DNA of 64,000 nucleotides from Ceratorhiza oryzae-sativae (Eukaryota > Basidiomycota > Agaricomycetes > Cantharellales > Ceratobasidiaceae): contig JARWMV010000020.1 of the NCBI GenBank assembly GCA_030998015.1, positions 1 through 64,000 on the forward strand. The letters are read 5' to 3'. Of this stretch, positions 8,186 to 51,848 are shown piece by piece (the first letter of the stretch is position 1; each line of letters starts with the position of its first letter). The notes beneath the pieces are model-generated. The model was not told the DNA's origin. It was given only the letters and a program-made list of their open reading frames with translations, and ran no database searches. The translations under genes were made by a program, and so were the position numbers.

Positions 8186-8765
8186 CCCAGTCATAAAGGA
8201 AAAGACCATCTGGAAACTAAGGAAATTAACACAAACCAAGAGTGCATTGGATTATGCTACCCAATTCCAGATCCTGATCCAAGAGGTAGGCTGGAACCAG
8301 GAAGCCCTCAAGGACCAATTCAGGGAAGGGTTAAAACCTGAAGTACGACAAGAGATTTTAAGGATTGAAGTACTGGCAAATGAGGCTGAAGGTCCATCAT
8401 ATACCTTAGATCAATTAATCAACTTTGCCTGCAAAATGGACAACATGCAGTTTGCAAACCAGAAAAAGAATGCAAGGACCAGCAACTCATCAAATTCAAC
8501 CTGGGCACCAGCAAAATACAAACAAGGGGGGAACAAGCCTTTAGGGATCAGTGGCAAACAGGGGAATACCCAAACCAACAACATGGTAAGGATACCAAAC
8601 AGTGAAAAGGACAGGCGAAGGAAAGAAGGACTCTGTATCAAATGCGGTAAATCAGGGCATGTCCTGAAGGAGTGCCAAGGCCAGTGGACCTACAACAAAG
8701 CTAAGATACAAGGGAAGGCCAGCAGACAAGTTGAGGAAGAAAGCAGCTCTGAGTTGGAAAACTAA
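8186..8765 (+). pseudogene. gag: R-A Gag, C-terminal part (split by G element)
   Basis: Gag of the R gypsy element resumes here after the G insertion. It contains the end of the capsid domain (the LDYATQFQILIQEV segment) and one CCHC knuckle CIKCGKSGHVLKEC at about 8632-8676, the nucleic-acid-binding part of Gag. The N-terminal half of this copy lies to the left of the window. The same region occurs at 17115-17893 and 37240-38008. Gag stops at 8763-8765, 17 bases before the pol ATG, which is in the -1 frame. Confidence 0.85.
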
Positions 8766-8782
8766 TTGGTCCTACCACTTCC

Positions 8783-11700
8783 ATGTTGGAGGACCCCAAT
8801 ATAACCCCTACTGCAGATGTATGTTACCTCAAGAAGTCTAGTAATCAATCAATAATATACACTACAGTAGAGGGAATCATGGAACCAGCAAAGACACTGA
8901 TTGACTCAGGATCTTCAACCAACTTCATCAATAAGGCCTATTCAAGGGAAAAGGGGATTCCAACCACTCCCCTCAACTGCAAGAAATCAATTGTGGCCAT
9001 TGATGGAAATGAAATCAAGGATGCCATAGAAGAAAGGGCAGAACTAAACATTGAAGTGGAAGGGAAGACACTGAAATGTTCCCTTTAAGTGATGACCCTA
9101 GGTGACACAGACATAGTCCTAGGGAAAGAATGGCTTGAAGAAGCAGAGCCTATCATAGATTGGAAAGACCTTACCATCTCATACCCAGATGAAATCAAGG
9201 CAAGGGCAGCAAGTGAAAGCCTACAAATCCCAGAAGAATTTAGGGATTTTGAAGACCTATTTGGGGAAGAAGGTTTCTGAGAACTTCCACCCCACCAAGG
9301 TAACCTAGACTTCAAAATGGACCTGATCAAGGGAGCAGAGCTGCCAAAGCCTGCAAAGAGGTACAGTATGTCGCCAGCAGAAACAAAGGCGCTCAGGGAG
9401 TACCTAGAGGAGGAACTAAGAAACGGGAAAATAAGGCCCAGCCAGTCAGTTGTAGCTGCACCCTGTTTCTATGTGAACAAAGCAGATGGAGGGCTTAGGT
9501 TGGTAGTCGACTACTGTAAGATGAATGACATCACCAAGCCAGACAGGTTTCCACTTCCAATCCAAATAGAATTGATTGAGAGACTGAAGGATGCAACCAT
9601 CTATTCAAAAATGGATGTTCGATGGGGGTTCAACAACATCAGGGTAAAAGAGGGAGACGAATGGAAAACAGCTTTCAGGACAGGAGAAGGCCAGTTTGAA
9701 TGCTTGGTCATGCCATTCAGAGTAAAGGAAGGACCAAGAACCTTTACAAGGTTCATGATGGAAAAGTTCCATGACATAATAGATGATTATGTGGTAATCT
9801 ACATGGACGATGTACTAGTGTTTTCCAGAAACAGGGAAGAACACATACAACATGTCAGGGAAGTGTTAAGAAGAATGAGGGAAAACCACCTCTTCCTCAA
9901 ACCACACAAGTGTCAGTTCTTTGTGAAGGAGGTAAGCTTCATTGGAATTGTCATATCCCCAGAAGGGATATCGATGGAAAAGGAAAAGGTAAAGGCAGTT
10001 CTAGAATGGCCAGAACCTAACACAGTAAAAGAAGTCCAAGCCTTCCTAGGCTTTGTGGGGTTCTATAGAAGGTGGATAGAGAAGTTTAGTACCTTAGCCA
10101 AACCCCTCACAGATCTCACTCAAAAAGATGTCAAATTCCTGTGGGAAAGAAAACAACAGGAAGCATTTGAAGCTATCAAAGAAGCAGTAGCAAGAGAACC
10201 AGTCCTAATCCACCCAAACCCAAACAGGCCATACATACTGGAAACAGATGCCTCAGGAGTGGCCATGGGGGCGGTACTAAGCCAAAAGGGTGATGACAAC
10301 CGATTGCATCCAATTGCCTTCCTATCAAAGAGCTTCACCCCACCAGAGAAAAATTATGACACCTACGACAAGGAGTTGCTTGCAATTGTTAGGTCCTTAG
10401 AGCACTGGAGGTTATACCTAGAAGGGACAGAGGAACCTATTGTGATATACACTGACCATAGGAACCTCCAGTACTGGCAAAATGCCCAGATGTGGAATAG
10501 AAGGCATGCCAGATGGTATCTCACTCTGGCACCCTTCAATTTTCAGATTGTGTATAGACCAGGGAAACTCTCACAGAAGCCAGATGCCCTTTCCAGAAGG
10601 AGCAACCATGGGGATACCCCTATGGAACCACAGATCATGATTGCAGAAGAAAAGTTCATAGGTTTCATGGCAGAAGTACAGGGGAATTTCTGGGAAGAGC
10701 TTAAAGAAGCTCAGGAAGAAGACAAATCTATCAGATCCTTAAGGCTGAGTGTGGCAAATAAAGAACAACTACCACCCTCAGTACAGAAGGAATTTAGACA
10801 GTATGAAATGAAGGAGGGCCTATTAAGGTATGACAATAGGCTCTACATCCCAGATGACAAGGACTTGAGGTTGAGTCTCCTTGAGGAGTGCCATGACGCC
10901 CCTGTGGCAGGTCATCAGGGACAAGCCCGAACACTAGAATTACTATCAAGGGATTACTATTGGCTAGGAATGAAGGCCCAAGTAAACCAATATGTGGAAT
11001 CTTGTGAAACATGTCAAAGAAGCAAAGGACACAAACAAGGCACTCCCCTGAAGTCCTTACCAATCCCATGGAAACCATGGGCAGATGTCGCATATGATTT
11101 CATTGTCAAATTACCTGTCTCAAAGGGGTACGACAGTATCTTGACAGTTGTAGATTGCTTCTCCTGGCAGGCCCATTTTGTACCATGTCTGGAGAGCACC
11201 AATGCAGAAGAACTGGCAGAAATATTCATAAGGGAGTATGGAGACATCACGGACCCCAGAAACCACTGTCTCAGACCGAGGGCCAACCTTTAACAGCCAA
11301 TTCCTAAAAGCCCTATACAAAGGAATTGGGACAAAGCCCAGATTCTCCACTGCTTCCATCCAGAAACAGATGGTCTGTCGGAAAGGACAAATCAATGGGT
11401 AGAAGGGTTCTTAAGAACCTTCTGCAATTATAGACAAGATGATTGGGTAAAATGGTTACCCATTGCCGAATTCTGCCATAACAACCATGTAAATGCTACA
11501 ACAGGACAAACCCCATTTGAAACAGTATATGGAAAAAACCCAAGATGGGTTGTCCAGAGGGAGAAGAACCATCTGAGGCACCGCTGCAGACAACATGCGT
11601 AATCAAATGGAAAAGGTATGGGATGAGGCAAGAGCCTCAATGGAATTACACCAACAAATGGAAAAGAAAGGGAGGGAATTCAAGGTAGGAGACAAGGTTT

Positions 11701-12190
11701 GGCTGCTCCTAACAAACCTCTTGTCCAAGAGACCCTCCAAGAAACTGGACAACCGAAAAGGGGGGCCTTTTGAAATCACAGAAAAGATCTCATCCCATGC
11801 ATATTGCCTGGACCTACCTAAAACCATACGTGTACACAATGTATTCCATGTAAATCTCCTCTTGCCATTCACAGAAGATAAAGACTTCCAAAGAAGGCAG
11901 GCCAAACCACCACCAATCATAACGGAAAAAGGAGAGGAGGAATACAGGTGGACCACATTGCAAATTATGAATGGCAGAATGGCAAGCTGTTTTACCAAAT
12001 CAGATGGAAGGGCTACGACCCAATAGAAGACACAATGGAACATGCCAGCAAGTTTGCTGACATGAAAGAGGTTCTAAATGACTTGCAAAGGCGCTTACCA
12101 GATGCACCAATGCCAGTCAAGACAAGTCAACACTCAGGTGACTCGAAAGGCAGGCCAAAGAGAACCAAACAAGGATCTGGAAAGCTTTAA
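8783..12190 (+). pseudogene. pol: R-A Pol: protease, RT, RNase H, integrase, chromodomain (decayed)
   Basis: Order: aspartic protease (LIDSGSSTNF, ~8900), RT (YMDDVLVFSRN at ~9802), RNase H (ETDASGVAMG, ~10240), HHCC and DDE integrase (from ~10880) and a chromodomain near 11940-12080 (NGKLFYQIRWKGYDP). This domain order identifies a chromodomain Ty3/gypsy element. Compared with R-C the copy has TAA at 9086, TGA at 9278 (from CGA), Arg-to-Cys/Trp changes at CpG codons, and frameshifts near 11240 and 11580-11940. RT through early integrase is still open (9317-11293, 658 aa). The chromodomain probably tethers integration to chromatin marks. Confidence 0.92.
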
Positions 12191-12277: not shown

Positions 12278-13099
12278 ATGCCTTTCGTCACTCACCCAGT
12301 TGCACATTCCAACTGTTACACACCACATGCTGAAAATCAGGTGGCCCCACTTTGGCAGCCACCCACCACTAGGTGGCCAGCACCCTACCCTGGCAGGGAA
12401 AATTGTCCTAAACTAGGGATGTACTGCTCCAGTGTGGAAGACGCCCAGAGGTACGCTGAACGACTGTTGCCAGGGGCTAACCTAGTGTACATCCCAAAGA
12501 AGTTAAGGGATGAAAGGAACTGGATCGACAATGACAAGTACCTGGATCCCAGGTTAGGAGTCCTGACATGGCATGGAAGCTGGAAGCCAACGACGAGAAA
12601 CGCCTTGCTAAGAACACCAATGTATGTTGCTGACAATATCATGGGACCAACAGTCAATGTGGTGACCAAGGCAGCAAGACAACAGAGGAGGGCCACAGGC
12701 CAAATAGCAGACAGGGGGGACTGGGAGGTGGAGCGCTGGGCAAAGGCATTGCTGGAAGAATGGAAGCTGACACCAGCTGCACCGTATGTGGGACTGCTCA
12801 AAGCAACTACCACTGATGAGATGTTTACTGCTATCAGGACAAAGCAGGCAAACATGAGCAACTTCCGAAATTGGGTGAAGGTGCACCCAAACAAAAACAC
12901 CAATTACAACACTGATATGACAAGCCTTACATCAAGCCTAGAATCACTGGTTGTGGCTGAGGAAGAAGCCAAGCCAGAAATAAAGGAATCCACCCTGGAC
13001 CCAGCTGCAGAACAAGCCAAACAGGACTGGGACCAGTGGGAAAACAAGCTTGTTGAAGCTCTGGAGGAGGTGCCACTGTTGGAACCAACCCCCATATGA
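12278..13099 (+). CDS. orfX of R-A, unknown 273-aa protein
   Basis: The frame is open in this copy, starts ~90 bp after the chromodomain stop, and is conserved in R-C (41536-42354) and, broken, in R-B (22719-23539). It has a Pro-rich N-terminus (PPTTRWPAPYPGREN), a central helical part with DAQRYAERLLPGANLVYIPK and an acidic C-terminus with a coiled-coil feel (KQDWDQWENKLVEALEEVP). No known domain was recognised. It is the first gene of the 3.25-kb module that also holds orfY and rep, so a role linked to that module, such as a structural or accessory protein, is possible but unproven. Confidence 0.6.
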   Translation: MPFVTHPVAHSNCYTPHAENQVAPLWQPPTTRWPAPYPGRENCPKLGMYCSSVEDAQRYAERLLPGANLVYIPKKLRDERNWIDNDKYLDPRLGVLTWHGSWKPTTRNALLRTPMYVADNIMGPTVNVVTKAARQQRRATGQIADRGDWEVERWAKALLEEWKLTPAAPYVGLLKATTTDEMFTAIRTKQANMSNFRNWVKVHPNKNTNYNTDMTSLTSSLESLVVAEEEAKPEIKESTLDPAAEQAKQDWDQWENKLVEALEEVPLLEPTPI

Positions 13100-13177
13100 C
13101 CACTTTGCCTCCCACGGATTTTCTCCTGAATGTATAAGAGTTTTTTTTTTACACACCAAACTTAATACATTTCCTTT

Positions 13178-13719
13178 TTACTCTCTATTTTTACGTTTGC
13201 CCTTGAGGGGCCAGGTATAGGGCTTCTTGCCTTTTTTATCCTTCTTATTGGTCTGAACAACTGTCCAGGTAGTGGGCTGCAGCCAAGGAGCCTCCCCCCC
13301 TGGGAAGTTGGCCATGTAGTTCTGGAAACACCCAGAACCAGATGCTGCAAAGGGCAAAGCCTCATCAAACAAGGGAGCAGAGCCCTCCTTGAAGAATTCG
13401 GCAAGAGCAGCCTGGTGAGACTGCTCCTCAAAGGACTTGTAGTCCTGATCAATGAGCACCCAGACACACTCAAGGGTGGCCTCATGGGCCTGACCATCAA
13501 GGAGGATGTGCTCTTCTACAGAACAAGTTAGCTACATGAGAACAATGAAGAACAAGCACACATACCTGGCACCCCACAGAAGAACCAATCCCCAACACCT
13601 CCATAGAAGTCTTCAAGGGAGGCGTCGCACACAGCATCACAGTAGGCGCAGTACTCCCCCTCAGGGAGAGACCAGCAGGTGCAGTCAAGGGGATTGTAGT
13701 TAAGGGAAATAACGCACAT
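13178..13719 (-). CDS. orfY of R-A, spliced 163-aa Cys-rich protein
   Basis: Exon 1 is 13719-13566 and exon 2 is 13515-13178, separated by a 50-bp intron (13516-13565) with GTATGTGTG donor and CTGTAG acceptor. The join restores one frame and the same intron lies at the same place in R-B and R-C. Exon 1 is Cys- and aromatic-rich (NYNPLDCTCW, EYCAYCDAVC); exon 2 has SGSGCFQNYMANFPGG and ends in a Lys-rich tail (KKDKKGKK, KGKRKNRE) that may bind nucleic acid or act as a nuclear signal. The gene converges on orfX and diverges from rep. The function is unknown; it holds the position a capsid gene would have in a CRESS virus. Confidence 0.6.
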
Positions 13720-14243
13720 AGTAAAGACAGGATGAGGAAGGAAAACAACAAAAACCACAAACATTAAAAAATCACAGTGCAAGACAATAACTTGCACAAA
13801 CATCAAAACAAGGTCTGGTCAGGTGACACCAACAGACACGTGACCATCTGCCAGAAATCAAACAACAAAGCACAGTAATCACATGACCTAGCCTAGTCAT
13901 GTGACCACCTGCCAGAAAACAAACAACAAAGCACAGGAATCACATGACCAAGCCTAGTCACGTGAATATACGCTATCCCCTAACTACCATAGGGGTTGGA
14001 GAGGGGGCACCGACTGAAGTGGAGGAGTGGAGGCCCCAAGCATAGCAAGGAGAAAGGCTGATGCAGGGGAACACAGGAAGGGCACCCCTTGGAGATGTGT
14101 CATAACCAGCACAAGCCTACATCAGGAAACCATGTGACCACAACAACCAGAGAGGGTATATCTAGGGGACACCTTTGGGGGTTAAGGGGGCTATCATCTC
14201 ATGCCCTCCCCACAAGACACATCTACTTCTAAAAACACCAACA
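13720..14243 (+). promoter_or_regulatory. R-A intergenic region between orfY and rep; candidate origin/promoter
   Basis: This divergent intergenic region holds two tandem ~61-bp units ending in TAGTCA(C/T)GTGA followed by a small hairpin: CCCCTA, 7-nt loop, TAGGGG near 13976-13996. R-C has the same arrangement and R-B has one unit fewer. A TATA-like GGTATATCTAGG lies near 14156, upstream of the rep frame. Repeats plus hairpin between divergent genes resemble a CRESS-virus origin, but no canonical nonanucleotide was found. Confidence 0.4.
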
Positions 14244-15529
14244 ATGCTAAGCGAAGATGGCTTGAACGTGGGAACACCCCAGCCAAACAAATCAAGCACA
14301 GGGCGGAGGTTGGCATCGCCATTGCTGGCGCCCTCGGAATCAAGCCAAGCCCCCTCACCCACTTCTACGCAGCTTACGCTGATGGATTGTGGGTCCGAAG
14401 AGCTGACCGAAACGCATGGGCCCCCTGATTCTGTGTCCAGACCAGGGCAGTGCTGCTGACCTGGTCGAAGCTACACAATCAGCCCTCAAGTGGGCTCGCT
14501 GCCCAATACAAGGCATTCTGCTGCCACCAACCCAATCACTGGGCAACCTTAGCCATGGTCGAATGGCACAACCCGGAGGAGCCGAACTATGACCCAACCC
14601 AGCCCCTGCATGTCCATGCCCTCTCCATCAGTCAGGAACGGAAGGGTAGGTGGAACACCCAGAATGCAGGGTTCTGGGACTTCAAGGGGCAACACCCCAA
14701 CATACAGCCCAAAGACCTCAAGGACAGACCAGGAGGCAACCCAGCAAGGGATGCCTTCAACTATCTCTGGAAGGACGTCAGAGCTAATGGCGAGGAGATA
14801 GAGGATCTGATGGCAGGGGACCTGACCTTGGAAAGGTTGGAGGAGATCTTGGTGAAGGGAAAGGGCAGAAAACAGTCAAGGATGGAGGCAGACTTGGAGG
14901 ATGGGATGGAGATTGTTGCCTCAGCAACAAAACAGGAGTACTACCAGGCGTTCAAGTGCCTCCACCCCCTCCAGATGGTGACGACATGGAACTTGGTACA
15001 AGCATATGCCAAGTACACATACAAGGAAGACCAGGGTTGCATGCCTGCAATCCCTGTGGAGTTAGAGGTCCCAGAAGACTGGGAGCACATCGACCAAGCA
15101 GACAGATGGTTTGCCAAGGAGGTCAAGAAGAGGGGAAGAGGGGTGCGCCATCGCATCCTGGTGATAGAAGGAGAAACTGGAACAGGGAAAACGGCATATG
15201 CACGATCCAAGGGCTGCCACAGCCAGATGTGCAATGTGTGGAATATGGGCAACTTGTCAGAAGATGCCAACATTTGGATCCTGAACAACATGGTCCAGTC
15301 AAACGGGAAGTACTCGCTCAAGGCCCTGAGCCAGTACAAGGTGGACTTCACAGGCAGGTACGTGCACATGAAATCAATGAAGGTATGGCCAACAGTTATT
15401 CTGGGAAATAGCTGGTTGGCAATCATGAAATGTTGGTCAGACATAGAGGGGGAAGAAGGGTACTTATGGGTATCAAGAAATGTGGAATGGGTGTATGCAG
15501 GAGGAAAACCATTTTTTGTATTCCCTTAG
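14244..15529 (+). pseudogene. rep: R-A rep: CRESS-DNA-virus-like Rep (HUH endonuclease + SF3 helicase)
   Basis: Rolling-circle motif I is LLTWSK, motif II HVHALS, motif III YLWKD (candidate catalytic Tyr), with FWDF...HPNI between II and III, resembling the GRS segment of geminivirus/genomovirus Reps. The helicase half has Walker A GETGTGKT near 15170-15193, a Walker B-like WILNN and motif C VILGN. In known Reps the Tyr nicks the origin and the helicase unwinds it. The copy has a 1-bp deletion near 14412 that breaks the N-terminus, and both Walker B acidic residues are Asn (WILDD in R-B and R-C), so it is inactive. The downstream frame is open from 14450. Confidence 0.85.
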
Positions 15530-15647: not shown

Positions 15648-15772
15648 ATCTCACATAACAGAGAGGTTAAGGGGTCTAGCCTGACTCAGCCTGACCTCAT
15701 CGAACAATACCGAATCAGCCAAAAGGTTGTTGGTTCAAGTCCAGCACCCTTAACCTCCTTGGTGCATGAGAT
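15648..15772 (+). other. tRNA-like / nested hairpin element before the R-A polypurine tract
   Basis: Nested complementary segments: ATCTCA (15648) with TGAGAT (15767), and GAGGTTAAGGG (15663) with CCCTTAACCTC (15747), enclosing a tRNA T-arm: GTTGG, 7-nt loop TTCAAGT, CCAGC (15729-15745). The loop is a textbook B-box-like T-loop. The D- and anticodon-arm region is not convincingly cloverleaf. The structure is conserved in R-B (split by a solo LTR) and R-C. It could be a degenerate intron-containing tRNA or an element-encoded RNA structure near the 3' LTR. Confidence 0.45.
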
Positions 15773-15824
15773 TCCTTTTGCATCAGGAACTAAACCATGT
15801 CTTGAGGTCCCCCAAGACATGTCC

Positions 15825-15838
15825 AAAGGGGGGGATAA
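15825..15838 (+). promoter_or_regulatory. Polypurine tract of R-A
   Basis: The run AAAGGGGGGGATAA lies directly before the LTR TG at 15839, the position and composition of a plus-strand priming tract. The same run precedes the 3' LTRs of R-B and R-C. Confidence 0.8.
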
Positions 15839-16505
15839 TGTTATGACCTGTCAAACGGACATAACAAAACAACCAAATATTCTTACAGATTTATGGCATT
15901 TTTCCTAAGCGGAACAAGCCATAAACAAGGTCACATGACCTTGGCGCTTAGCCGGCACTTATGGTGGTTACCCTGAACTCACTCCAGCATTTCTCTGCAT
16001 TGTTACTTGGAGCAAGGAGCAAGTTGTCACGTGACCTTGGCACTTACAGCAGGGTCACATGACCTCAGCGCTTACGGTGGTTACCCTGAACTTGCTCCAG
16101 CATTTCTCTCCATTGTTACTTGGAGCAAGGAGCGAGTTGTCATGTGATCTTGGCGCTTGGCAGGATCACGTGACCTCAGCACCTACCCCTCAGACCTCAC
16201 GTGGCTCTATAAGATTCAGAGCTGCACAAACTTAAGACAAACAATTACCTAACCCATAGTACTGTACATAACCTACAACTACTGCAGAGTGTGCTTAGAT
16301 AATACGTCCACAGCCACTGCAGCCACAGGTATATATAAGAAGGATAAAGCAAGACTGGACGCCTCAGCTTGCTGTATCTTGTCAACCACCATAGACCATA
16401 GCAAACACTGTAACTAGAACACTCAATACATATTGCATAGCACCAAACTGTCAACACAGCCACTACTTAAGTGCTTCACAAGGAAGCCTCCAGAGGGTCA
16501 CAACA
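15839..16505 (+). repeat. R LTR shared by R-A (3') and R-B (5')
   Basis: The 667-bp LTR starts with TGTTATGACC and ends with GGTCACAACA. A polypurine tract lies on its left and R-B leader sequence on its right, with no second LTR between the two internal regions. It contains tandem modules with CACGTGA-type palindromes, TATATATAAG near 16330, and many TG/CA replacements of CpG relative to the R-C LTRs. The shared LTR indicates a tandem array formed by unequal LTR recombination. Confidence 0.9.
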
Positions 16506-24608: not shown

Positions 24609-25894
24609 ATGCTAAGCAAAGAAGGCTCAAATGTGGGAACACCCCAGCCAAATGAATCAAGCACAGGGTGGAGGTCAGCATCGCCATCACTGGTGCCCTC
24701 AGGATCAAGCTGAGCCCCCTCACCTCTTCTACACAGCCTACACTGACAGATTGTGGGTCTGAAGAGCTGACCAAAACTGCACCAGCCCCCCAATTCTGCA
24801 TCCAGACCAGGGCAGTGCTGCTGACCTGGTCGAAGTTATGCAATCAGCCCTCAAGTGGGCTTGTTGCCTGATACAAGGTGTTCTGCTGCCATTGGCCCAA
24901 TCACTGGGCGACTTTAGCTGTGGTCGAACAGCACAACCTGGAGGAGCCAAACTATGACCCAACCCAGCCCCTGCACATCCATGCCCTCTCCATCAGTCAG
25001 GAACAGAAGGGCAGGTGGAACACCCAGAATGTGGGGTTCTGGGACTTCAAGGGGCAACACCCCAACATTCTGCCCAAGGACCTCAAGGACAGGCCAGGAG
25101 GCAACCTGGTAAGGGATGCCTTCAACTATCTCTGGAAGGATGTTGGAGCTAACAGCAAGGAGATCAAGGATTTGATGTCAGGGGATCTGACCTTGGAAAG
25201 GTTAGAGGAGATCTTGCTGAAGGGAAAGGGTGGAAAACAGTCTAGGATGGAGGCAGACTTGGAGGATGGGACAGAGATTGTCACCTTGGCAACAAAGCAG
25301 GAGTACTACCAGGTGTTCAAGCACCTCTGCCCCCTCCAGATGGTGACAATGTGGAACTTGGTACAAGCATATGCCAAGTACACATGCAAGGAAGACTGGG
25401 GTTGCATGCCTGCAATCCCTGTGGAGTTAGAGGTCCTGGGAGACCAGGAGCACATTGACCAAGCAGACAGATGGTTTGCCAAGGAAGTCAAGAAGAGGGG
25501 AAGAGGTGTGCACTATTGCATCCTGGTGATAGAAGGAGAGACTGGAACAGGGAAAACAGCATACGCACAATCCAAGGGCTGCCACAGCTGGATGTGCAAT
25601 GTGTGGAACATGGGGAACTTGTCAGAAGATGCTGACATTTGGATCCTGGATGACATGGTCCAGTCAAATGGGAAGTACTTGCTCAAGGCCCTCAGCCAGT
25701 ATGAGGCAGACTTCATGGGCAGGTATGCGCATGTGAAATTGATGAAGGTACAGCCAACAGTTATTCTGGGAAATAGCCAGTTGGCAATCATGAAGTGTTG
25801 GTCAGACATAGAGGGGGAAGAGGGGGACTTATGGGTATCAAAAAACATAGAATGGGTGTACTCAGGGGGAAAACCATTCTTTGTATTCCCTTAG
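24609..25894 (+). pseudogene. rep: R-B rep: CRESS-like Rep with in-frame stop
   Basis: Same protein as R-A rep. The N-terminal frame has a small deletion near 24725, and TGA replaces the CGA codon at 24872. From 24878 the frame is open for 338 aa: motif II HIHALS, motif III YLWKD, Walker A GETGTGKT, Walker B WILDD and motif C VILGN all intact. Motif I LLTWSK lies just upstream of the stop. Catalytic residues are therefore better kept here than in R-A, but the stop between motifs I and II prevents a full protein. Confidence 0.85.
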
Positions 25895-36212: not shown

Positions 36213-36889
36213 TGTTATGACCCGCCTAGCAGACATAACCTAACAACCGAATATTGTACAGATTTATGGCATTTTTCCCAAGGCAGAACAAACCATAAAC
36301 AGGATCACGTGATCTCGGCGCTTACCCAACGATTAAGTGCCGGTGGTTACCCTGAACTCGCTCCAGCGTTTCTCTCCCATGTTACCTGGAGTGAGGAGTG
36401 AGTTGTCACGTGATCTCGGCACTTACCAACGATTAAGCACCGGTGGTTACCCTGAACTCGCTCCAGCGTTTCTCTCCCATGTTACCTGGAGCGAGGAGCG
36501 AGTTGTCACGTGACCTCGGCGCTTACCCAACAATTAAGCGCCGGGTGCTTAAGTCCAAAAAGTCACATGACCCTCGGACCTCATGCAGCTCTATAAGATT
36601 CGGAGCCGCACAAACATAAGACAAACAATTACCTAACCCATAGTACTGTACATAACCTACACCTACTGCGGAGTACGCTTAGATAATATGACTGCAGCCA
36701 CTGCAGCCACAGGTATATATAAGGAGGATAAAACAAGACTGGACGCCTCAGCTTGCTTTATCTTGTCAACCACCATAGACCATAGCAAACACTGTAACTA
36801 GAATGCTCAATACATACTGCATAGCACCAAACCGTCAACGCAGCCACTACTTAAGTGCTCCACAAGGGAGCCTCCAGAGGGTCACAACA
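36213..36889 (+). repeat. 5' LTR of R-C
   Basis: A 677-bp LTR. It holds two full tandem ~100-bp modules (about 36300-36540), each with TCACGTGA, a hairpin of type GGCGCTTA-loop-TAAGYGCC, and an inverted pair AACTCGCTCC/GGAGCGAGTT. The promoter is TATATATAAG at about 36713. It starts TGTTATGACC and ends GGTCACAACA. Confidence 0.95.
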
Positions 36890-37046
36890 TTATAAAGCAA
36901 GCTCTTAACTTAACTAGTGGTGAACATAAGTATACTGCACAGATACTAAGGGCTGAGTACACGAGAAAACCAGCTAACTCCTGTGATACATAAGAGAACA
37001 TAAGGAAACTATGTCACAGAGACCATAAACTCGATCTCAAAGCAGA

Positions 37047-38008
37047 GTGGCAAATAGTAGGCCACAATCACCCAAACCCATTGCTTCCCCAGAGGCTGAA
37101 GGTAACCCAGATGAGACCCTCCAAGGAATGCCAGGGGGGTTGCCAGAAAACCCACGACCAGTGGCTCAACCCAACCCCACTCGGGCCCCCATCCTGGGAG
37201 GGGAAATAGGGGAAGGAAGCAGAGAACTTCATAATCAGCATGGAACTTTTCTTTGCTGACTATGACGAATCAGCCTTTGATGACCGAAAAAAGATATCTG
37301 CTGTGCTAATGAACATGGAGGATGGGGAAGCAGCAAACTGGGCACAACCTTACCGCCGTAAACTACTAGCAGGTGAACACACAGGTATTCTTGCATCCTG
37401 GAAGGATTTCAGGAAGGGATTCCTGGATGCTTTTAATGACCCAGTCATAAAGGAAAAGACCATCCGGAAACTAAGGAAATTAACACAGACCAAGAGTGCA
37501 TTGGATTATGCTACCCAATTCCGGATCCTGATCCAAGAGGTAGACTGGAACCAAGAAGCCCTCAAGGACCAATTCAGGGAAGGGTTAAAACCCGAAGTAC
37601 GACAAGAGATCTTAAGGATTGAAGTACTGGCAAATGAGGCTGAAGGTCCATCATATACCTTAGATCAATTAATTGACTTTGCCTGCAAAATGGATGACAT
37701 GCAGTTTGCAAACCAGAAAATGAATACAAGGACCAGCAACTCTTCAAATTCAACCTGGGCACCAGCAAAATACAAACAAGGGGGGAACAAGCCTTTAGGG
37801 ACCAGTGGCAAACAGGGGAATACCCAAACCAACAACATGGTAAGGATACCAAACAGTGAAAAGGACAGGCGAAGGAAAGAAGGACTCTGCATCAAATGCG
37901 GTAAATCAGGGCATGTCCTGAAGGAGTGCTGAGGCCAGTGGACCTACGACAAGGCTAAGATACAAGGGAAGGCCAGCCAACAAGTTGAGGAGGAAAGCAG
38001 CTCTTAGC
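37047..38008 (+). pseudogene. gag: R-C Gag
   Basis: The Pro-rich N-terminal ORF (37047-37259) is out of frame with the capsid ORF (37240-37932), because a TAG precedes the capsid frame. The capsid begins at SMELFFADYDESAFDD and the CCHC knuckle is CIKCGKSGHVLKEC. TGA at 37930-37932 comes from CGA, judged by CAA in R-A and CAG in R-B at the same codon. The leader before ~37215 is unrelated to that of R-B. Confidence 0.85.
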
Positions 38009-38036
38009 TGGAAAACTAATTGGTCCTACCACTTCC

Positions 38037-41000
38037 ATGTTGGAGGACCCCAATATAACCCCTACCGCAGATGTATGTTACCTCAAGAAGTCTAGTAATC
38101 AATCAATAATATACACTACAGTAGAGGGAATCATGGAACCAGCTAAGACGCTGATTGACTCAGGATCTTCAACCAACTTCATCGATAAGGCCTATTCAAG
38201 GGAAAAAGGGATTCCAACCACTCCCCTCAAACACAAGAAATCAATTGTGGCCATTGACGGAAATGAAATCAAGGATGCCATAGAAGAAAGGGCAGAACTA
38301 AACATCAAAGTGGAAGGGAAGACACTAAAATGCTCCCTTTATGTAATGACCCTAGGTGACACAGACATAGTCCTAGGGAAAGAATGGCTTGAAGAAGCAG
38401 AACCTATCATAGATTGGAAAGACCTTACCATCTCATACCCAGACGAAATCAAGGCAAGGGCAGCAAGTGAAAGCCTACAATCCCAGAAGAATTTAGGGAT
38501 TTTGAAGACCTATTCGGGGAAGAGGGTTTCCGAGAACTTCCACCCCACCGAGGTAACCTAGACTTCAAAATGGACCTGATCGAGGGAGCGGAGCTGCCAA
38601 AGCCTGCAAAGAGGTACAGTATGTCACCAGCAGAAACAAAGGCGCTCAGGGAGTACCTAGAGGAGGAACTAAGAAACGGGAAAATAAGGCCCAGCCAGTC
38701 AGTTGTAGCTGCACCCTGTTTCTATGTGAACAAAGCAGATGGAGGGCTTAGGTTGGTAGTCGACTACCGTAAGATGAATGACATCACCAAGCCAGACAGG
38801 TTTCCACTTCCAATCCAAATAGAATTGATTGAGAGACTGAAGGATGCAACCATCTATTCAAAAATGGATGTTCGATGGGGGTTCAACAACATCAGGGTAA
38901 AAGAGGGAGACGAATGGAAAACAGCTTTCAGGACAGGAGAAGGCCAGTTTGAATGCTTGGTCATGCCATTCGGAGTAAAAGAAGGACCAAGAACCTTTAC
39001 CAGGTTCATGATGGAAAAGTTCCGTGACATAATAGACGATTATGTGGTAATCTACATGGACGATGTACTAGTGTTTTCCAGAAACAGGGAAGAACACGTA
39101 CAACATGTCAGGGAAGTGTTAAGAAGAATGAGGGAAAACCACCTCTTCCTCAAACCACACAAGTGTCAGTTCTTTGTGAAGGAGGTAAGCTTCATTGGAA
39201 TTGTCATATCCCCAGAAGGGATATCGATGGAAAAGGAAAAGGTAAAGGCAGTTCTAGAATGGCCAGAACCTAACACAGTAAAAGAAGTCCAAGCCTTCCT
39301 AGGCTTCGTGGGGTTCTATAGAAGGTGGATAGAGAAGTTTAGTACCTTAGCCAAACCCCTCACAGATCTCACCCAAAAAGATGTCAAATTCCTGTGGGAA
39401 AGAAAACAACAGGAAGCATTTGAAGCTATCAAAGAAGCAGTAGCAAGAGAACCGGTCCTGATCCACCCAAACCCAAACAGGCCATACATACTGGAAACAG
39501 ACGCCTCAGGAGTGGCCATGGGGGCGGTACTAAGCCAAAAGGGTGATGACAACCGATTGCATCCAATTGCCTTCCTATCGAAGAGCTTCACCCCACCAGA
39601 GAAAAATTATGACACCTACGACAAGGAGTTGCTTGCAATTGTTAGGTCCTTAGAGCACTGGAGGTTATACTTAGAAGGGACAGAGGAACCTATTGTGATA
39701 TACACTGACCATAGGAACCTCCAGTACTGGCAAAATGCCCAGATGTGGAATAGAAGGCATGCCAGATGGTATCTCACTCTGGCACCCTTCAATTTTCAGA
39801 TTGTGTATAGACCAGGGAAACTCTCACAGAAGCCAGATGCCCTTTCCAGAAGGAGCGACCATGGGGATACCCCTATGGAACCACAGATCATGATTCCAGA
39901 AGAAAGGTTCATAGGTTTCATGGCAGAAGTACAGGGGAATTTCTGGGAAGAGCTTAAAGAAGCTCAGGAAGAAGACGAATCTATCAGATCCTTAAGGCTG
40001 AGTGTGGCAAATAAAAACAACTACCGCCCTCAGTACAGAAGGAATTTAGACGGTATGAAATGAAGGAGGGCCTATTAAGGTATGACGATAGGCTCTACAT
40101 CCCAGATGACAAGGACTTGAGGTTGAGTCTCCTTGAGGAGTGCCATGACGCCCCAGTGGCAGGTCATCAGGGACAAGCCCGAACACTAGAATTACTATCA
40201 AGGGATTACTATTGGCCAGGAATGAAGGCCCAAGTAAACCGATACGTGGAATCTTGTGAAACGTGTCAAAGAAGCAAAGGACACAAACAAGGCACTCCCC
40301 TGAAGTCCTTACCAATCCCATGGAAACCATGGGCAGATGTCGCATATGATTTCATCGTCAAATTACCTGTCTCAAAGGGGTACGACAGTATCTTGACAGT
40401 TGTAGATCGCTTCTCCCGGCAGGCCCATTTTGTACCATGTCTGGAGAGCACCAATGCAGAAGAACTGGCAGAAATATTCATAAGGGAAGTATGGAGACAT
40501 CACGGGACCCCAGAAACCACTGTCTCAGACCGAGGGCCAACCTTTAACAGCCAATTCCTAAAGCCCTATACAAAGGAATTGGGACAAAGCCCAGATTCTC
40601 CACTGCTTTCCATCCAGAAACAGATGGTCTGTCGGAAAGGACAAATCAATGGGTAGAAGGGTTCTTAAGAACCTTCTGCAATTATAGACAAGATGATTGG
40701 GTAAAATGGTTACCCATTGCCGAATTCTGCCATAACAACCACGTAAATGCTACAACAGGACAAACCCCATTTGAAACAGTATATGGAAAAAACCCAAGAT
40801 GGGTTGTCCGAGAGGGAGAAGAACCATCTGAGGCACCCGCTGCAGACAACATGCGTAACCAAATGGAAAAGGTATGGGATGAGGCAAGAGCCTCAATGGA
40901 ATTACACCAACAAATGGAAAAGAAAGGGAGGGAATTCAAGGTAGGAGACAAGGTTTGGCTGCTCCTAACAAACCTCTCGTCCAAGAGACCCTCCAAGAAA

Positions 41001-41447
41001 CTGGACAACCGAAAAGGGGGGCCCTTTGAAATCACAGAAAAGATCTCATCCCATGCATATCGCCTGGACCTACCTAAAACCATACGTGTACACAATGTAT
41101 TCCATGTAAATCTCCTCTCGCCATTCACAGAAGATAAAGACTTCCGAAGAAGGCAGGTCAAACCACCACCAATCATAACGGAAAAAGGAGAGGAGGAATA
41201 CAAGGTGGACCACATTGCAAATTATGAATGGCGGAATGGCGAGCTGTTTTACCAAATCAGATGGAAGGGCTACGACCCAATAGAAGACACAATGGAACGT
41301 GCCAGCAAGTTTGCTGACATGAAAGAGGTTCTAAATGACTTGCAAAGGCACTTACCAGACGCACCAATGCCAGTCAAGACAAGTCAGCACTCAGGTGACT
41401 CGAAAGGCAGGCCAAAGAGAACCAAACGAGGATCTGGAAAGCTTTAA
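38037..41447 (+). pseudogene. pol: R-C Pol: protease, RT, RNase H, integrase, chromodomain
   Basis: Protease LIDSGSSTNF (~38155); RT VDYRKMND and YMDDVLVF (~39050), both intact; RNase H ETDASG (~39497) and YTDHRNLQYW; integrase with HHCC (HDAPVAGHQGQ to CETCQRSKGHK) and SDRGPTFNSQF (~40527); C-terminal KVGDKVWLLLTN and chromodomain (GELFYQIRWKGYDPIEDT, ~41240-41300). Small deletions shift the frame near 38480, 40013 and 40561, so full Pol cannot be made, but all catalytic residues checked are present. Confidence 0.93.
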
Positions 41448-41535
41448 AAGAAGCCATCCAGGATACCCAAGAGAGGCCAGAGCCCGCTCTACTACCTCAC
41501 TTGCACCACAACACACCTGCGAAACCCCAAAAAGC

Positions 41536-42354
41536 ATGGCTTTCGTCACTCACCCAATCGCACATCCCAACCGTTACACCCCACTTGCTGAAAATCAGGT
41601 GGCCCCACTTTGGCAGCCACCCACCACCAGGCGGCCAGCACCCTACCCTGGCAGGGAAAATTGTCCTAAACCAGGGATGTACTGCTCCAGTGTGGAAGAC
41701 GCCCAGAGGTACGCCGAACGACTGTTGCCAGGGGCTAACCTAGTGTACATCCCAAAGAAGTTAAGGGATGAAAGGAACTGGATTGACGATGACAAGTACC
41801 TGGATCCCAGGTTAGGGGTCCTGACATGGCATGGAAGCCAGAAGCCAACAACGAGAAACGCCTTGTTAAGAACACTGATGTATGTCGTCGACAATATCGT
41901 GGGACCAACAGTCGACGTGGTGACCAAGGCAGCAAGGCAACAGAGGAGGGCCACAGGCCAAATGGCAGACGGAGGGGACTGGGAGGTGGAGCGCCGGGCA
42001 AAGGCACTGTTGGAGCAGTGGAAGCTGGCACCGGCGGCACCGTATGTGGGACTGCTTGAGGCCACTACCACTGATGAAATGTTTACTGCCATCAGGTTGA
42101 AGGAAGCAAACTTGGCCGACTTCCGTAACTGGGTGAAGGTACGCCCAAACCTGCACGGTTACGACACAGATATGTCGAGCCTCACGGCAAGCCTGGAGTC
42201 CCTGGTGGTGAAGGAGGAGGAGCCAAGAGTAACAATAAAGGAACCAACCCCGGACCCGGCCCAAGAGGGAGTCCAAACGGATTGGGCCAAATGGGAGGAT
42301 GAACTGGCAGGCGCCTTGGAGGAAGTGCCCCTGCTGGCCCCGGAGCCCTTGTGA
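41536..42354 (+). CDS. orfX of R-C, unknown 272-aa protein
   Basis: Open from ATG 41536, 89 bp after the chromodomain stop, and conserved with R-A and R-B orfX. The open frame extends upstream to 41335 within the chromodomain region in a different frame, but conservation starts at MAFVTHP. Features: Pro-rich N-terminus, central AERLLPGANLVYIPKKLRD, RRAKALLEQWK, and an acidic C-terminal third. It ends 81 bp before the convergent orfY stop. Function unknown; not recognised as a retroelement protein. Confidence 0.62.
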   Translation: MAFVTHPIAHPNRYTPLAENQVAPLWQPPTTRRPAPYPGRENCPKPGMYCSSVEDAQRYAERLLPGANLVYIPKKLRDERNWIDDDKYLDPRLGVLTWHGSQKPTTRNALLRTLMYVVDNIVGPTVDVVTKAARQQRRATGQMADGGDWEVERRAKALLEQWKLAPAAPYVGLLEATTTDEMFTAIRLKEANLADFRNWVKVRPNLHGYDTDMSSLTASLESLVVKEEEPRVTIKEPTPDPAQEGVQTDWAKWEDELAGALEEVPLLAPEPL

Positions 42355-42435
42355 TTATTGGGCCTATCACATGTTTTTTTGGAATGTCTTAAGAATAATT
42401 CTCATAATCATATAATAATACATTTCAAAATGTTT

Positions 42436-42977
42436 CTATTTTTTCTTGCCCTTGAGGGGCCGGGTATAGGGTTTTTTTGCCTTCTTATCCTTCCTAGTAG
42501 TACGGGCTGCAGAACCACCGGCCCGGTTCTCAGGCAACAGCCAGGGGGCCTCCCCCCCTGGGAGATCGGCCATATAGTTCTGGAAACATCCAGAACCAGA
42601 AGCCGCAAAGGGTGAGGCCTTGTCGAACAAAGGGGCCGAGCCCTCCTCAAAAAACTCAGCAAGGGCAGCCTGGTGTTGCCGCTCCTCAAATAACTGGCAG
42701 TCCTGATCAACGAGCGCCCAGACACGCTCAAGGGTGGCCTCATGGGCCCAACCATCAAGGAGGATGCACTCTTCTACAGAACAAGTTAGCTACATGAGAA
42801 TGACGAAGAACGAACACACATACCAGGCACCCCACAGAAGAACCAGTCCCCAACACCTCGATAGAAGTCTTCAAGGGAGGCATCGCACACAGCATCACAG
42901 TAGGCGCAGTACTCCCCCTCAGGGAGAGACCAGCAGGTGCAGTCAAGGGGATTGTAGTTAAGGGAAATAACACGCAT
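42436..42977 (-). CDS. orfY of R-C, spliced 163-aa Cys-rich protein
   Basis: Exon 1 42977-42824, 50-bp intron 42774-42823 (GTATGTGTG ... CTGTAG), exon 2 42773-42436. Exon lengths (154 and 338 nt) are identical to R-A. N-terminus NYNPLDCTCW and EYCAYCDAVC; exon 2 SGSGCFQNYMADLPGG; C-terminus strongly basic (RKDKKAKKPYTR, KGKKK). The small size, basic tail and position opposite rep fit a CRESS-virus structural gene, but no capsid fold can be claimed from sequence alone. Confidence 0.62.
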
Positions 42978-43474
42978 AGTAAAGACGGGATGAGGAAGGA
43001 AAACAACAAAACCACAAACATTAAAAAATCACAGTGCAACACAATAACGTGCACAAACATCAAAACAAGGTCTGGTCAGGTGACACCAACAGACATGTGA
43101 CCATCTGCCAGAAAACAAACAACAAAGCACAGGAATCACATGACCTAGCCTAGTCACGTGACCACCTGCCAGAAAACAAACAACAAAGCACAGGAATCAC
43201 ATGACCTAGCCTAGTCACGTGAATATACGCTATCCCCTAACTACCGGAGGGGTCGGAGAGGGGGCACTGACCGAAGTGGGGGAGCGGAGGCCCCAAGTGT
43301 AGCGAGGATCAAGGCCGACGCGGAGGAACGGATGGGAGGGCACCCCTCGGAGATGCGTCATCACCAAAAAAGGTCATGTGATCACAACAAATGCAAGACG
43401 GAGTCATGTGACAATTAAAACGGACCTTGCAGCTTATATAGACAAGCACAAGGCCCGAGATAACCTGCACTCTC
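42978..43474 (+). promoter_or_regulatory. R-C intergenic region: 61-bp tandem repeats, hairpin, TATA (candidate origin)
   Basis: Two exact-period 61-bp direct repeats (43097-43157 and 43158-43218), each with CACATGACCTAGCCTAGTCA and ending at CACGTGA. Directly after follows a hairpin CCCCT (43234-43238), 9-nt loop AACTACCGG, AGGGG (43248-43252). TTATATAG near 43434 is a TATA candidate ~40 bp before ATG 43475. Layout (iteron-like repeats plus hairpin between divergent genes) is that of a CRESS-virus origin; the loop does not match the common nonanucleotide. Confidence 0.45.
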
Positions 43475-43700
43475 ATGCTCTCTTCCCAGTCCCCAAATAT
43501 CTCTAAAACCATAAATGATGCTAAGCAGAAATGGATCGAACGCGGCAACACCCCAGCCAAGCGGATCAAGCGAAGGGCGGAGGTCGGCGTCGCCATCGCC
43601 AGCGCCCTCGGTATCAAGCCGAGCCCCCTCACCTGCTTCTATGCGGCCTATGCTGACGGATCGAGGGTCCGAAGAGCTGACCGAAACCGTGCCGGCCCCT
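43475..43700 (+). CDS. Overlapping ORF in the rep 5' region (alternative frame)
   Basis: An ORF starting at ATG 43475 runs in a different frame from rep and is open to 44062. The first ~70 residues (AKRIKRRAEVGVAIASALGIK) are matched with conservative changes in R-A (14201-14428) and partly in R-B, and are rich in Arg/Lys like a nuclear signal. It might be an accessory protein overlapping rep, or the true N-terminal exon of Rep joined by splicing. Chance openness in GC-rich DNA remains possible. Confidence 0.3.
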
Positions 43701-44155
43701 CGGTTCCGCGTCCAGACCAGGGCGGTGCTGCTGACCTGGTCGAAGCTATGCAATCAGCCCTCAAGTGGGCTCGTCACCCGATACAAGGCATTCTGCCGCC
43801 AACGGCCAAATCATTGGGCGACTTTGGCGGTGGTGGAACACCACAACCCCGAGGAACCGAACTACAACCCAGCCCGGCCCCTCCATGTCCACACCCTCTC
43901 CATCAGTCAGGAGCGGAAGGGCGGCTGGAACACCCAGAACACCCGGTTCTGGGACTTCGAGGGGCAACACCCCAACATCCTGCTGAAGGACCTCAAGGAC
44001 GGACCAGGAGGCAACCCTGCAAGGGAGGCTTTCAACTACCTCTGGAAGGATGTCGGAGCTAACGGCAAGGAGGTAGAGGAGCTGATGGCGGGGGACCTGA
44101 CCTTGGAAAGGTTGGAGGAAATCCTGGTGAAGGGGAAGGGCAGGAAAAGGTCGAG
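43515..44155 (+). pseudogene. rep: R-C rep, endonuclease half (split by T element)
   Basis: Residues ~1-60 are Ser/Pro-rich; FRVQTRAVLLTWSK at ~64-77 holds motif I; PLHVHTLS at ~122-129 motif II; FWDFEGQHPNI at ~145-155 resembles the GRS segment known from geminivirus and genomovirus Reps; YLWKD at ~175-179 motif III with the candidate nicking Tyr. No stop occurs before the T insertion at 44156. The helicase half resumes at 51104 in the same frame. Apart from the insertion no inactivating change was seen, unlike the other two copies. Confidence 0.87.
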
Positions 44156-44532
44156 TGTCACGAACTGACACGCATACATCCACTCTACAATATTTTCTCG
44201 ATTTTCTACATTTTATGAGATCATCTTCAAAACATACATGCCTTTTATGGTATATCTGTGTCATGTGACTCAGGGAATGTTCCGGACCGGTAACCAAGAG
44301 GTATTTCAACTCTGATGTGAAATTCCGCAGTTCCGCAGTCGCTTCTACTGCTTCTATCTCTTATCTGTCGTGACTCACTGTACGGACTTGTTTGTTATGA
44401 TGTGGCTTGTACTATGTATATAAACCAGGTCAAGTTCGCAGAGGACTCCTCAAGAACTTGACCTCTCGTCGAATACAAGTTCTTTTACTTTTCTTACTAT
44501 TTCCCTTGTTGCCTGACTTGTCGTTGTCGACA
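44156..44532 (+). repeat. 5' LTR of T
   Basis: TGTCACGAAC to GTTGTCGACA, 377 bp. TATATAAA at 44417-44424 and the self-priming complement TCAAGAACTTGACCT at 44450-44464, about where the transcript should begin. Confidence 0.93.
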
Positions 44533-44534
44533 TC

Positions 44535-44549
44535 AGGTCAAGTTCTTGA
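44535..44549 (+). promoter_or_regulatory. Self-priming primer-binding site of T
   Basis: AGGTCAAGTTCTTGA just inside the 5' LTR is perfectly complementary over 15 nt to LTR positions 44450-44464, i.e. near the predicted 5' end of the element's own RNA. No tRNA-3'-end complement (TGG...) is present. This is the arrangement known for Tf1-type self-primed elements. Confidence 0.7.
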
Positions 44550-44824
44550 CAATCGTAAGTCTCAGTGTTGTCTGGGATATGTCTGGAACGCTGTCGGCGT
44601 CGTCTCGAGATAACTCCTTGTTGCCTTCCCCAATCCCACTCCACCTATCCACAGTCACGAGATATCGTTGCCCTATACGCGCCTCTGTGAAACCTTGCAT
44701 AGCCAGGTCCCTCACACGTCGTAACAAGCTTCGGTTCTCTAATCTCTTTCGTCAACAAGAGGTGGGGTCGCTCATTGCCCTTAAGTAGCTGAGCAACGGA
44801 GGTCACCTTCCTATTCCCATAGAC

Positions 44825-45220
44825 TTGGGAAAGGGTCTATTTTTTCCTTTTATCTTGCTCTTGCTCGAGTACGTCTCTGACGGAACGCACGGCCCTCAAG
44901 TGGCACAACCTTTTACAGAAGATCAGCGCTGCCATCTGTGTGGGTGGTTCGGACACCTATCGATCCACTGCTTCACCCTCAACTCAGTCGAAAGTATCCT
45001 TGAAGAAGCAGGGCACATCAATTTTAGCCGAGTAGTAATTATCAAAGTCTGCCCCCAGAGAGTTGGACGTGCCCAACAAGCCTTCGTCACCGAGCCAGGT
45101 GCCCCTGAGTGCAAGATCTGCCGTTGGCCAAACAAAGCCACCTTCCCCGCGCGCTGCCCCTATTGTCCTAAGAAGGACAAATTCCTCTATTACTACACCA
45201 TCACTCGCAACCAGCTCTAA
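44825..45220 (+). CDS. T leader ORF: CCHC-knuckle and CxxC protein
   Basis: A 131-aa open frame (probable coding part from ~44890) with CHLCGWFGHLSIHC, a CX2CX4HX4C knuckle, followed by CKICRW and ARCPYC pairs that could form a second zinc site. It lies upstream of gag, which has its own knuckle. The downstream leader frames overlap or follow directly in other frames. I do not recognise the family; it may be an element-specific nucleic-acid-binding protein or a split N-terminal Gag extension. Confidence 0.4.
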   Translation: MGKGLFFPFILLLLEYVSDGTHGPQVAQPFTEDQRCHLCGWFGHLSIHCFTLNSVESILEEAGHINFSRVVIIKVCPQRVGRAQQAFVTEPGAPECKICRWPNKATFPARCPYCPKKDKFLYYYTITRNQL

Positions 45221-45225
45221 GCTTG

Positions 45226-45795
45226 AGAACCTTGGTCAACAGCTTCTTCGTCACCTGTTAAACACTATCGAAAACTTCCAAGACAGGTACCGTTATTACC
45301 GGAATAAGTACGAAGAAACCTGTGAAAAACTTCACGAAGCCGAGGCCCGTTGCGCATACTTAACTGAGCGTTTGCGCGAACACCAGGAGGACTACCTATC
45401 CCTCCTCCAAGACCATCTCAGACTAGAAGCTATAGTCCGAGAAACAGTTGAACCCCACAAGTACGCCTTCCCCGTCTTCTCAACGCCGTCAGACCTTCCT
45501 CACCCCACCTTTCTAAGTGGCACGGGCTCGCCAATTCAGGAAGAAACATCCCTTCCAGCAGCCCAAGCCAATCCTCCCCAAGGAGACACTCCTGCGGGAT
45601 CAAACTAAATTGAAGAGGGTGGAGTGCCCATACCATTGCCAAGACACCAAAAGTTGGGACTTGGACGATACCTGGCTAAGATTTGCGGGGATCAGAAACT
45701 TCGAAATTTATAGACTCGTGCGGGGGAAAGAAATCCTATATTACCAAAACAATTCCCAATTCCCTGTACTTCCTTACCGTCTCCGTCGCCTTTAG
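45226..45795 (+). CDS. T leader ORFs: coiled-coil protein and small basic ORF
   Basis: The frame open from 45063 (likely coding from ~45226) to 45608 has a heptad-rich stretch (QQLLRHLLNTIENFQDRYRYYRNKYEETCEKL begins at about 45237; positions 45237-45440 are coiled-coil-like). A second frame, 45517-45795, overlaps it and is basic and aromatic-rich (TWLRFAGIRNFEIYRLVRG). Both end before the gag ATG at 45820. Continuous coding character across three frames suggests either several small ORFs or one frame broken by indels. Confidence 0.35.
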
Positions 45796-45819
45796 AATTC
45801 TATCAAACCTTCTCTAAAA

Positions 45820-50734: not shown

Positions 50735-51098
50735 CACGCATACATCCACTCTACAATATTTTCTCGATTTTCTACATTTTATGAGATCATCTTCAAAACA
50801 TACATGCCTTTTATGGTATATCTGTGTCATGTGACTCAGGGAATGTTCCGGACCGGTAACCAAGAGGTATTTCAACTCTGATGTGAAATTCCGCAGTTCT
50901 GCAGTCGCTTCTACTGCTTCTATCTCTTATCTGTTGTGACTCACTGTACGGACTTGTTTGTTATGATGTGGCTCGTACTATGTATATAAACCAGGTCAAG
51001 TTCGCAGAGGACTCCTCAAGAACTTGACCTCTCGTCGAATACAAGTTCTTTTACTTTTCTTACTATTTCCCTTTTTGCCTGACTTGTCGTCGTCGACA
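50722..51098 (+). repeat. 3' LTR of T
   Basis: A 377-bp LTR nearly identical to 44156-44532. The few differences (e.g. TCCGCAG/TCTGCAG, CTGTCGTG/CTGTTGTG) are mainly C/T at CpG, pointing to recent insertion. Confidence 0.93.
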
Positions 51099-51103
51099 TT
51101 GAG

Positions 51104-51752: not shown

Positions 51753-51848
51753 AAAATAAAAATAAATTATCTTTGTATAAGCTGTTTTTATTCACAGACC
51801 ATGTGTTGAGAAGTAAGCTTAAACAAGGAAATAAGCAAGGAGAAAGTA

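Follow-up and report, generated by a model that had tools for sequence, protein, structure and literature searches.

Mobile elements that multiply by reverse transcription are generally classed apart from those that multiply by rolling-circle replication, and the DNA circles formed by retroelements are mostly seen as dead ends. In Genomoviridae and Geminiviridae, two divergent genes are laid out around an intergenic region. Here, we describe a module of the same layout, including a gene for a Rep-like protein (rep), within a chromodomain Ty3/gypsy family of long terminal repeat (LTR) retrotransposons that we termed R. Three R copies (R-A, R-B, and R-C) lie in the 64-kb stretch of Ceratorhiza oryzae-sativae DNA considered here (C20:1-64000, on contig JARWMV010000020.1; hereafter, the window), which belongs to a genome of 48.8 Mb in 253 contigs.

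The nearest precedents that we found, in the parts of the sources covered, are a transposon of Tuber melanosporum, the terminons of bdelloid rotifers, and bdelloid LTR retrotransposons. The geminivirus-like transposon of T. melanosporum is, like R, a fungal element that is present in many copies and encodes a Rep-like protein; it has terminal inverted repeats and transposase open reading frames (ORFs), and none of the terms LTR, retroelement, reverse transcriptase, retrotransposon, or gypsy appears in the main text of its description (Liu et al. 2011, PMC3198968). Terminons are giant Penelope-like elements at telomeres that can carry rolling-circle Rep genes and for which circular intermediates have been suggested; unlike R, they are not LTR elements, and the part of that article covered does not describe their Reps as being of the circular Rep-encoding single-stranded DNA (CRESS) type (PMC6431247). 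Bdelloid LTR retrotransposons resemble R in having captured accessory genes, namely, GDSL, DEDDy, coiled-coil, and membrane ORFs, and the whole word Rep is absent from the main text of that report (PMC5408684). The published literature that we searched, mostly as titles and abstract beginnings, gave no precedent of an LTR retrotransposon carrying a Rep.

R elements share with chromoviruses a reverse transcriptase (RT), RNase H, integrase, chromodomain, polypurine tract (PPT), LTRs, and a 5-bp target-site duplication (TSD) but differ from them by additional 3' genes (orfX, orfY, and rep) and by carrying a tRNA-like sequence ahead of the PPT. The RT, RNase H, and integrase domains score over their Pfam cut-offs, and LTRs, PPT, and TSD are all present, as expected for Ty3/gypsy; the chromodomain of R-A is just under its cut-off, and that of a more distant family, T, is over it. 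The order in R-A is a gag zinc-knuckle ORF, RT-RNase H-integrase, the integrase C terminus with the chromodomain, orfX, antisense orfY, the intergenic region, rep, the tRNA-like sequence, the PPT, and the LTR (Table 1). A preliminary description of this DNA had placed orfX, a spliced orfY, a repeat-bearing intergenic region, and a rep gene with HUH, GRS-like (FWDF..HPNI), and SF3 helicase motifs at positions 12278 to 15529, downstream of the chromodomain. All of these are indeed present there, and the module order also recurs in R-B, in R-C, and genome-wide, in line with the proposal that the block is a family trait.

We then looked into the distribution of rep in the genome and found it at no fewer than 113 places, which are distributed over 71 contigs (the list has 114 matches, two of which are pieces of one), while a rep query from a sister family, S, gave 151 matches. 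Linkage was evaluated as lower bounds from coordinate lists, using 145 of 150 integrase rows (three overlapping or second pieces of listed copies were omitted, as were two more distant matches with 54% and 63%). Among 128 matches to the integrase C terminus with an identity of ≥77%, at least 118 had orfX downstream, at least 85 had rep, and at least 123 had one or the other; neither gene was found for 5 among the matches listed, one of which (C233:1281789) has a rep ~2.4 kb downstream in another search. Conversely, at least 91 of the 113 rep places had orfX within 6 kb upstream and at least 90 had an integrase C terminus within 8 kb, with 15 having neither among the matches listed. The same PPT and LTR follow 31/32 rep tails, the PPT beginning 230 to 302 nucleotides past the rep frame; the single exception is R-B, which is interrupted before the PPT. 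The Rep-like gene is thus a stable family trait of this chromodomain gypsy element. The preliminary description had also envisaged that most R copies might lack the block and that the three in the window might stem from one segmental duplication. The former did not occur, and we ruled out the latter because copies are spread over 71 contigs and because R-C is bounded by an LTR pair and a TSD (TCACT) of its own.

We then analyzed the rep sequences, using the general definitions of the HUH and SF3 motifs and the order that these motifs have in CRESS Reps. The R-A gene contains LLTWSK, HVHALS, YLWKD, FWDF..HPNI, and GETGTGKT, but its Walker B motif reads WILNN, versus WILDD in 26/31 genome copies, and an in-frame TGA lies upstream of motif I, so this copy looks decayed. 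Across the 31 genome copies, the three HUH motifs occur in order (LLTW[SL], H[VI]H[AT]L, and YLWK, each in 31/31), as do the Walker A lysine and VILGNS (31/31 each). The HUH-helicase frame of the sense rep gene is free of introns. A pattern scan of 16 alignment rows of related proteins, several of them fragments, recovered motif I in 9 (missing P0001, which reads FLTWS), motif II in 13 (one as HVQAL), and motif III in 14 (one as FLWK), whereas a motif-C pattern that was written too narrowly matched only 5/16; where a row reaches the motifs, they are kept.

Stops occur inside many of the genome rep matches listed, showing that many copies have decayed. The 24 differences between the R-C LTRs (653/677 aligned positions identical) are all transitions, a pattern characteristic of C-to-T decay, with which the Walker B change in the window copy also agrees. 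Since such decay does not produce transversions, our selection test counted transversions only. The nonsynonymous-to-synonymous (N/S) ratio of rep was 0.154 over 26 copies (325 pairs) and 0.099 when copies of two allele classes were compared with each other (65 pairs, 18 stop-free copies, codons after 70), the pairs not being independent. The corresponding ratios were 0.536 for orfX (14 copies) and 0.574 for RT (13 copies), RT being a poor yardstick because its differences are few and frameshifts add noise. We conclude that rep is under purifying selection. These data bear on the possibility that rep is a passenger, i.e., a fragment of a CRESS-like virus that integrated into an ancestral gypsy element and has been copied along with no function for it. 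The many decayed copies, the Walker B loss in the window, and the absence of any experimental sign of activity would fit such a history, but the low N/S ratio between allele classes and the kept motifs do not, and neither do the occurrence of the same block in two families whose RTs are 67% identical and a noncoding core conserved like coding sequence (see below). We therefore consider a mere passenger improbable.

As to what the protein is, Reps of Genomoviridae and Geminiviridae likewise combine HUH motifs I to III with SF3 motifs, and they provide the best rows in a structural comparison. The two structure models of Rep were poor (pLDDT of 34.3 and 44.7). When the second was compared by Foldseek with viral models, rows 1 and 4 to 7 were RepA/Rep proteins, four from genomoviruses and one from a dragonfly-associated circular virus, and rows 2 and 3 were unnamed; E values for this poor model ran from 1.2e-3 to 7.7e-3 over rows 1 to 7 and then rose to 0.13, with no row reaching 0.001 and with low TM-scores. 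The CRESS-DNA-virus-like nature put forward in the preliminary description agrees with the best structural look-alikes, which are viral Reps, mostly genomoviral. Among the PDB matches listed for the second model there was no Rep, and PDB searches by sequence gave nothing or only a RAD1/RAD17 entry (E of 0.53 and 0.39). Sequence searches, each with about 8,000 candidates scored, reached proteins of Ceratobasidium (Ceratobasidium sp. AG-Ba belongs to the Cantharellales, a basidiomycete order), the best eight being 70 to 79% identical over 86 to 99% of the query; among the matches listed, all named relatives were from Ceratobasidium, and the others were unnamed records, mostly metagenomic. No precomputed Pfam domain was recorded on 87 related proteins from one search.

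Several results weigh against our interpretation of the module. Contrary to what the preliminary description would predict, no Pfam model exceeds its cut-off on Rep, the best being Gemini_AL1_M (E of 0.001; 19.5 bits versus a cut-off of 24). Also, no match to the nonanucleotide TAATATTAC with at most one mismatch was found between orfY and rep, genomovirus variant nonanucleotides being outside this search. The module further departs from Genomoviridae and Geminiviridae by its location inside an LTR retrotransposon and by its orfY, which is not recognized as a capsid protein. A search with PF00799 gave no match, the controls being equally silent, and a six-frame search with PF08283 did not find the rep copies. 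Scans of viral contigs with the Rep alignment, a nonanucleotide-based pattern, and a Walker A pattern gave no lead, including contig L119 (2,491 bases), which came from the nonanucleotide-based scan and has no Rep-like ORF. The plasmid search returned two weak matches only (E of 3 and 10), and searches of bacterial and archaeal genomes, PHROGs, and Rfam gave no lead. Rep could then be a fungal P-loop protein with HUH-like motifs by chance, a view in keeping with the lack of a profile over cut-off, the poor structure model, and the fact that, at E ≤ 1 and below cut-off, nSTAND3 matches are commoner (37/70 family members) than Gemini_AL1_M matches (16/70). We regard this as very improbable, since six motifs stand in CRESS order and are conserved in the family, viral Reps occupy the top of the Foldseek ranking and are separated by a gap from the rows below, and the match to Gemini_AL1_M spans almost the full profile (positions 11 to 106 of 107 for P0009, ending in the Walker A region). 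A kinship with the Reps of CRESS-DNA viruses appears likely, and Rep is at most a candidate for membership in that group.

We next compared R with its relatives. Members of the S family are 72 to 75% identical to R in the integrase C terminus and 67% in RT. Among the four S loci examined, two (L030/L031 and L029/L032) carry orfX, orfY, and rep in the R order, one (L034) carries a broken set, and one (L033) has orfX and a scrap of orfY, with no rep in its 5 kb, so that rep is present in 3/4. In L029 and L030, orfX (44 to 48% identical to R), pieces of orfY (37 to 64%), and rep (69 to 71%) occupy the same place as in R; in L031 and L032, rep is 68% identical over its length, and the elements finish in the same kind of PPT. 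Between R and S, pol and rep have therefore diverged to a like degree (RT, 67%; rep, 68 to 71%). In the T family (L035 to L038), whose integrase/chromodomain region is about 60% identical to R, orfX is found (E of 4e-9 to 6e-4) and is followed, where read, by the PPT and LTR (their start was read by eye in one locus, L037), but no recognizable orfY or rep was found in the four loci. Weak matches there were taken as chance: one to rep (E of 0.012) inside the L036 integrase and a 23-residue orfY piece (E of 0.01 to 0.02) inside a shared 1.3-kb repeat. This repeat is carried by all four T loci, 90 to 97% identical, in or near the 3' region of the element. The integrase tree supports R+S (95/95) and R+S+T (100/97); a gypsy element nested in the window falls outside this clade, and its integrase lies too close to the LTR to accommodate the module.

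As orfX occurs without recognizable orfY or rep in T, it is apparently older than the rep insert, and the 3.25-kb block is unlikely to reflect the capture of a single virus-sized replicon. The capture proposed in the preliminary description is thus retained for the Rep-like gene, which is stable in the gypsy family, and abandoned for the block as a single unit. The added unit was probably orfY, the intergenic region, and rep, ~2.7 kb between orfX and the PPT, and the simplest reading is that it was inserted there in the ancestor of R and S, the alternative being its loss in T.

The intergenic core is 77% identical between R and S, compared with 72 to 73% for the integrase, 71 to 72% for the HUH part of rep, and 55 to 57% for the adjoining noncoding stretch. 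It contains a hairpin, CCCCT(9)AGGGG with a nine-base loop, at positions 13977 to 13995, whose covariation support did not exceed that of shuffled sequences; likewise, the intergenic region folded no better than shuffles. The core may serve as an origin and as a two-way promoter. The ~61-bp intergenic repeats and ~100-bp repeats in the LTR share TCACRTGA motifs, and their copy numbers vary. Geminivirus Reps are known to push the host cell into S phase, and Rep could serve the element by a route other than rolling-circle copying, either in such a way or by binding DNA and thereby regulating the two-way promoter and the LTR. Motifs common to the intergenic repeats and the LTR, together with the lack of a canonical origin sequence, speak for a regulator, but the catalytic tyrosine and histidine and the helicase lysine are kept in 31/31 copies, beyond what a mere binder would be expected to need, and we deem such a route rather unlikely.

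Further information came from seven aligned copies, compared in eight pairs. Their gag-pol regions are 96 to 100% identical, whereas the orfX end and orfY are 72 to 82% and rep is 79 to 87% identical in some pairs; in other pairs, identity stays high across the accessory region, and the switches are sharp. Parts of the accessory region have thus been exchanged among near-identical backbones. Junctions made by Rep at the intergenic core were considered; the mapped break points in L013, L019, L022, and L027 lie elsewhere. One locus (L013, positions 1 to 10000) contains a tandem pair of module-plus-LTR units with a spacing of 3.94 kb, in which the end of an LTR is fused to the middle of orfX. Sharp switches of this kind and the tandem array could indicate that orfY, the intergenic region, and rep form a semi-independent replicon able to excise or copy itself, with the retrotransposon serving only as its vehicle. 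The position of nearly all rep tails before the same PPT and LTR and the break points outside the core argue against it, and recombination during reverse transcription explains the mosaics; a hyperparasite of this sort seems to us highly improbable.

Going beyond the linkage, conservation, purifying selection on rep, and allele shuffling described above, we propose the following explanation. A gypsy lineage that already had orfX would have gained, between orfX and the PPT, a divergent two-gene unit made of orfY, a control region, and a Rep of the HUH-SF3 type, and this unit would then have moved as part of the retrotransposon, inside its LTRs and TSD. The intron of orfY would survive reverse transcription: being antisense, it is not removed from the element RNA, so its presence fits spread via gypsy RNA. 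Acting on extrachromosomal DNA of the element, Rep may nick the conserved intergenic core and amplify this DNA by rolling-circle replication, so that more copies would persist or integrate, and OrfY, a small cysteine-rich protein with a basic tail, may help or regulate. We are confident of the first part, the capture and maintenance of a Rep-like gene by a gypsy lineage. The explanation as a whole, in which the unit was gained, moves with the retrotransposon, and codes for a Rep that copies element DNA, is one that we moderately favor. That amplification of the element by rolling circle is the actual job of Rep has somewhat less than an even chance. A fuller version, with R and S as dual-mode replicons in which a genomovirus-like Rep copies the extrachromosomal DNA by rolling circle from the intergenic core after reverse transcription, with reshuffling of rep and orfY alleles between retrotransposon backbones that are nearly identical, is offered only tentatively.

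If this proposal is true, a retrotransposon lineage that acquired a replication gene of the single-stranded DNA virus type, retained it under selection, and transmitted it to two or more families would represent a natural chimera of both modes, suggesting that one mobile element may combine two different ways of multiplying, and whether retroelement DNA circles can be copied would become testable. R, S, and T also offer a datable route for viral genes to enter genomes and stay there, with T showing the element without the insert.

Table 1. Coordinates of the features of R elements in the window
Feature	Position	Strand	Remark
R-A gag zinc-knuckle ORF	8247..8762	+	Pfam zf-CCHC_5, E 8.6e-4, under cut-off
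R-A RT, RNase H, integrase N-terminal part	9317..11293	+	Pfam RVT_1, RT_RNaseH, Integrase_H2C2 over cut-offs
R-A integrase C-terminal part and chromodomain	11595..12190	+	SH3_Tf2-1, E 3.4e-19; Chromo 23.0 bits, cut-off 25.1
orfX, third ORF of this gypsy lineage	12278..13099	+	also in T family, directly before PPT
orfY exon 2, basic C-terminal tail	13515-13178	-	gene model
orfY intron, 50 nt	13565-13516	-	GTATGT...CTAAC...TAG
orfY exon 1, Cys-rich	13719-13566	-	gene model
Tandem repeats of ~61 bp, TCACRTGA/TCATGTGA motifs	13838..13968	.	copy number differs between copies
Conserved intergenic core; putative origin and/or two-way promoter	13940..14099	.	
ORF upstream of rep, protein-like conservation	14201..14428	+	here in rep frame, ends at TGA before motif I
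rep, HUH motifs I-III and SF3 helicase motifs	14453..15529	+	window copy without Walker B DD, in-frame stop upstream
tRNA-like sequence with B-box-like motif	15663..15757	+	between rep and PPT
R-A PPT	15824..15838	+	
R-A 3' LTR	15839..16505	+	
rep of copy R-B	24818..25894	+	
Complete copy R-C	36213..52727	+	LTRs 36213-36889 and 52051-52727, TSD TCACT

The 5' end of R-A is absent from the window: similarity to R-C begins at position 8185, and the stretch before it belongs to a different repeat family. In R-C, rep is split at 44153/51102 by another gypsy, the nested element occupying positions 44154 to 51101.

Matches to orfX number at least 141 in the genome, some of them being pieces of one copy. 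The orfY product has 163 amino acids; its spliced gene model comes from one copy, and its DNA was aligned in seven copies. Neither orfX nor an S-family copy of orfY matched a Pfam family over the cut-off. The tRNA-like sequence has an 11-bp acceptor-like stem, its B-box-like motif is kept in 31/32 rep tails, and a similar sequence is present in the S family (L032); ARAGORN and Rfam reported no tRNA at this position.

The ORF upstream of rep overlaps the N-terminal extension of rep in another frame in most copies, whereas in the window copy it is in the rep frame. As anchored, this frame is open in 18/28 copies, and its second codon position has the fewest transversions. A sequence like that of the upstream ORF is also read by a Ceratobasidium gene model (P0030).

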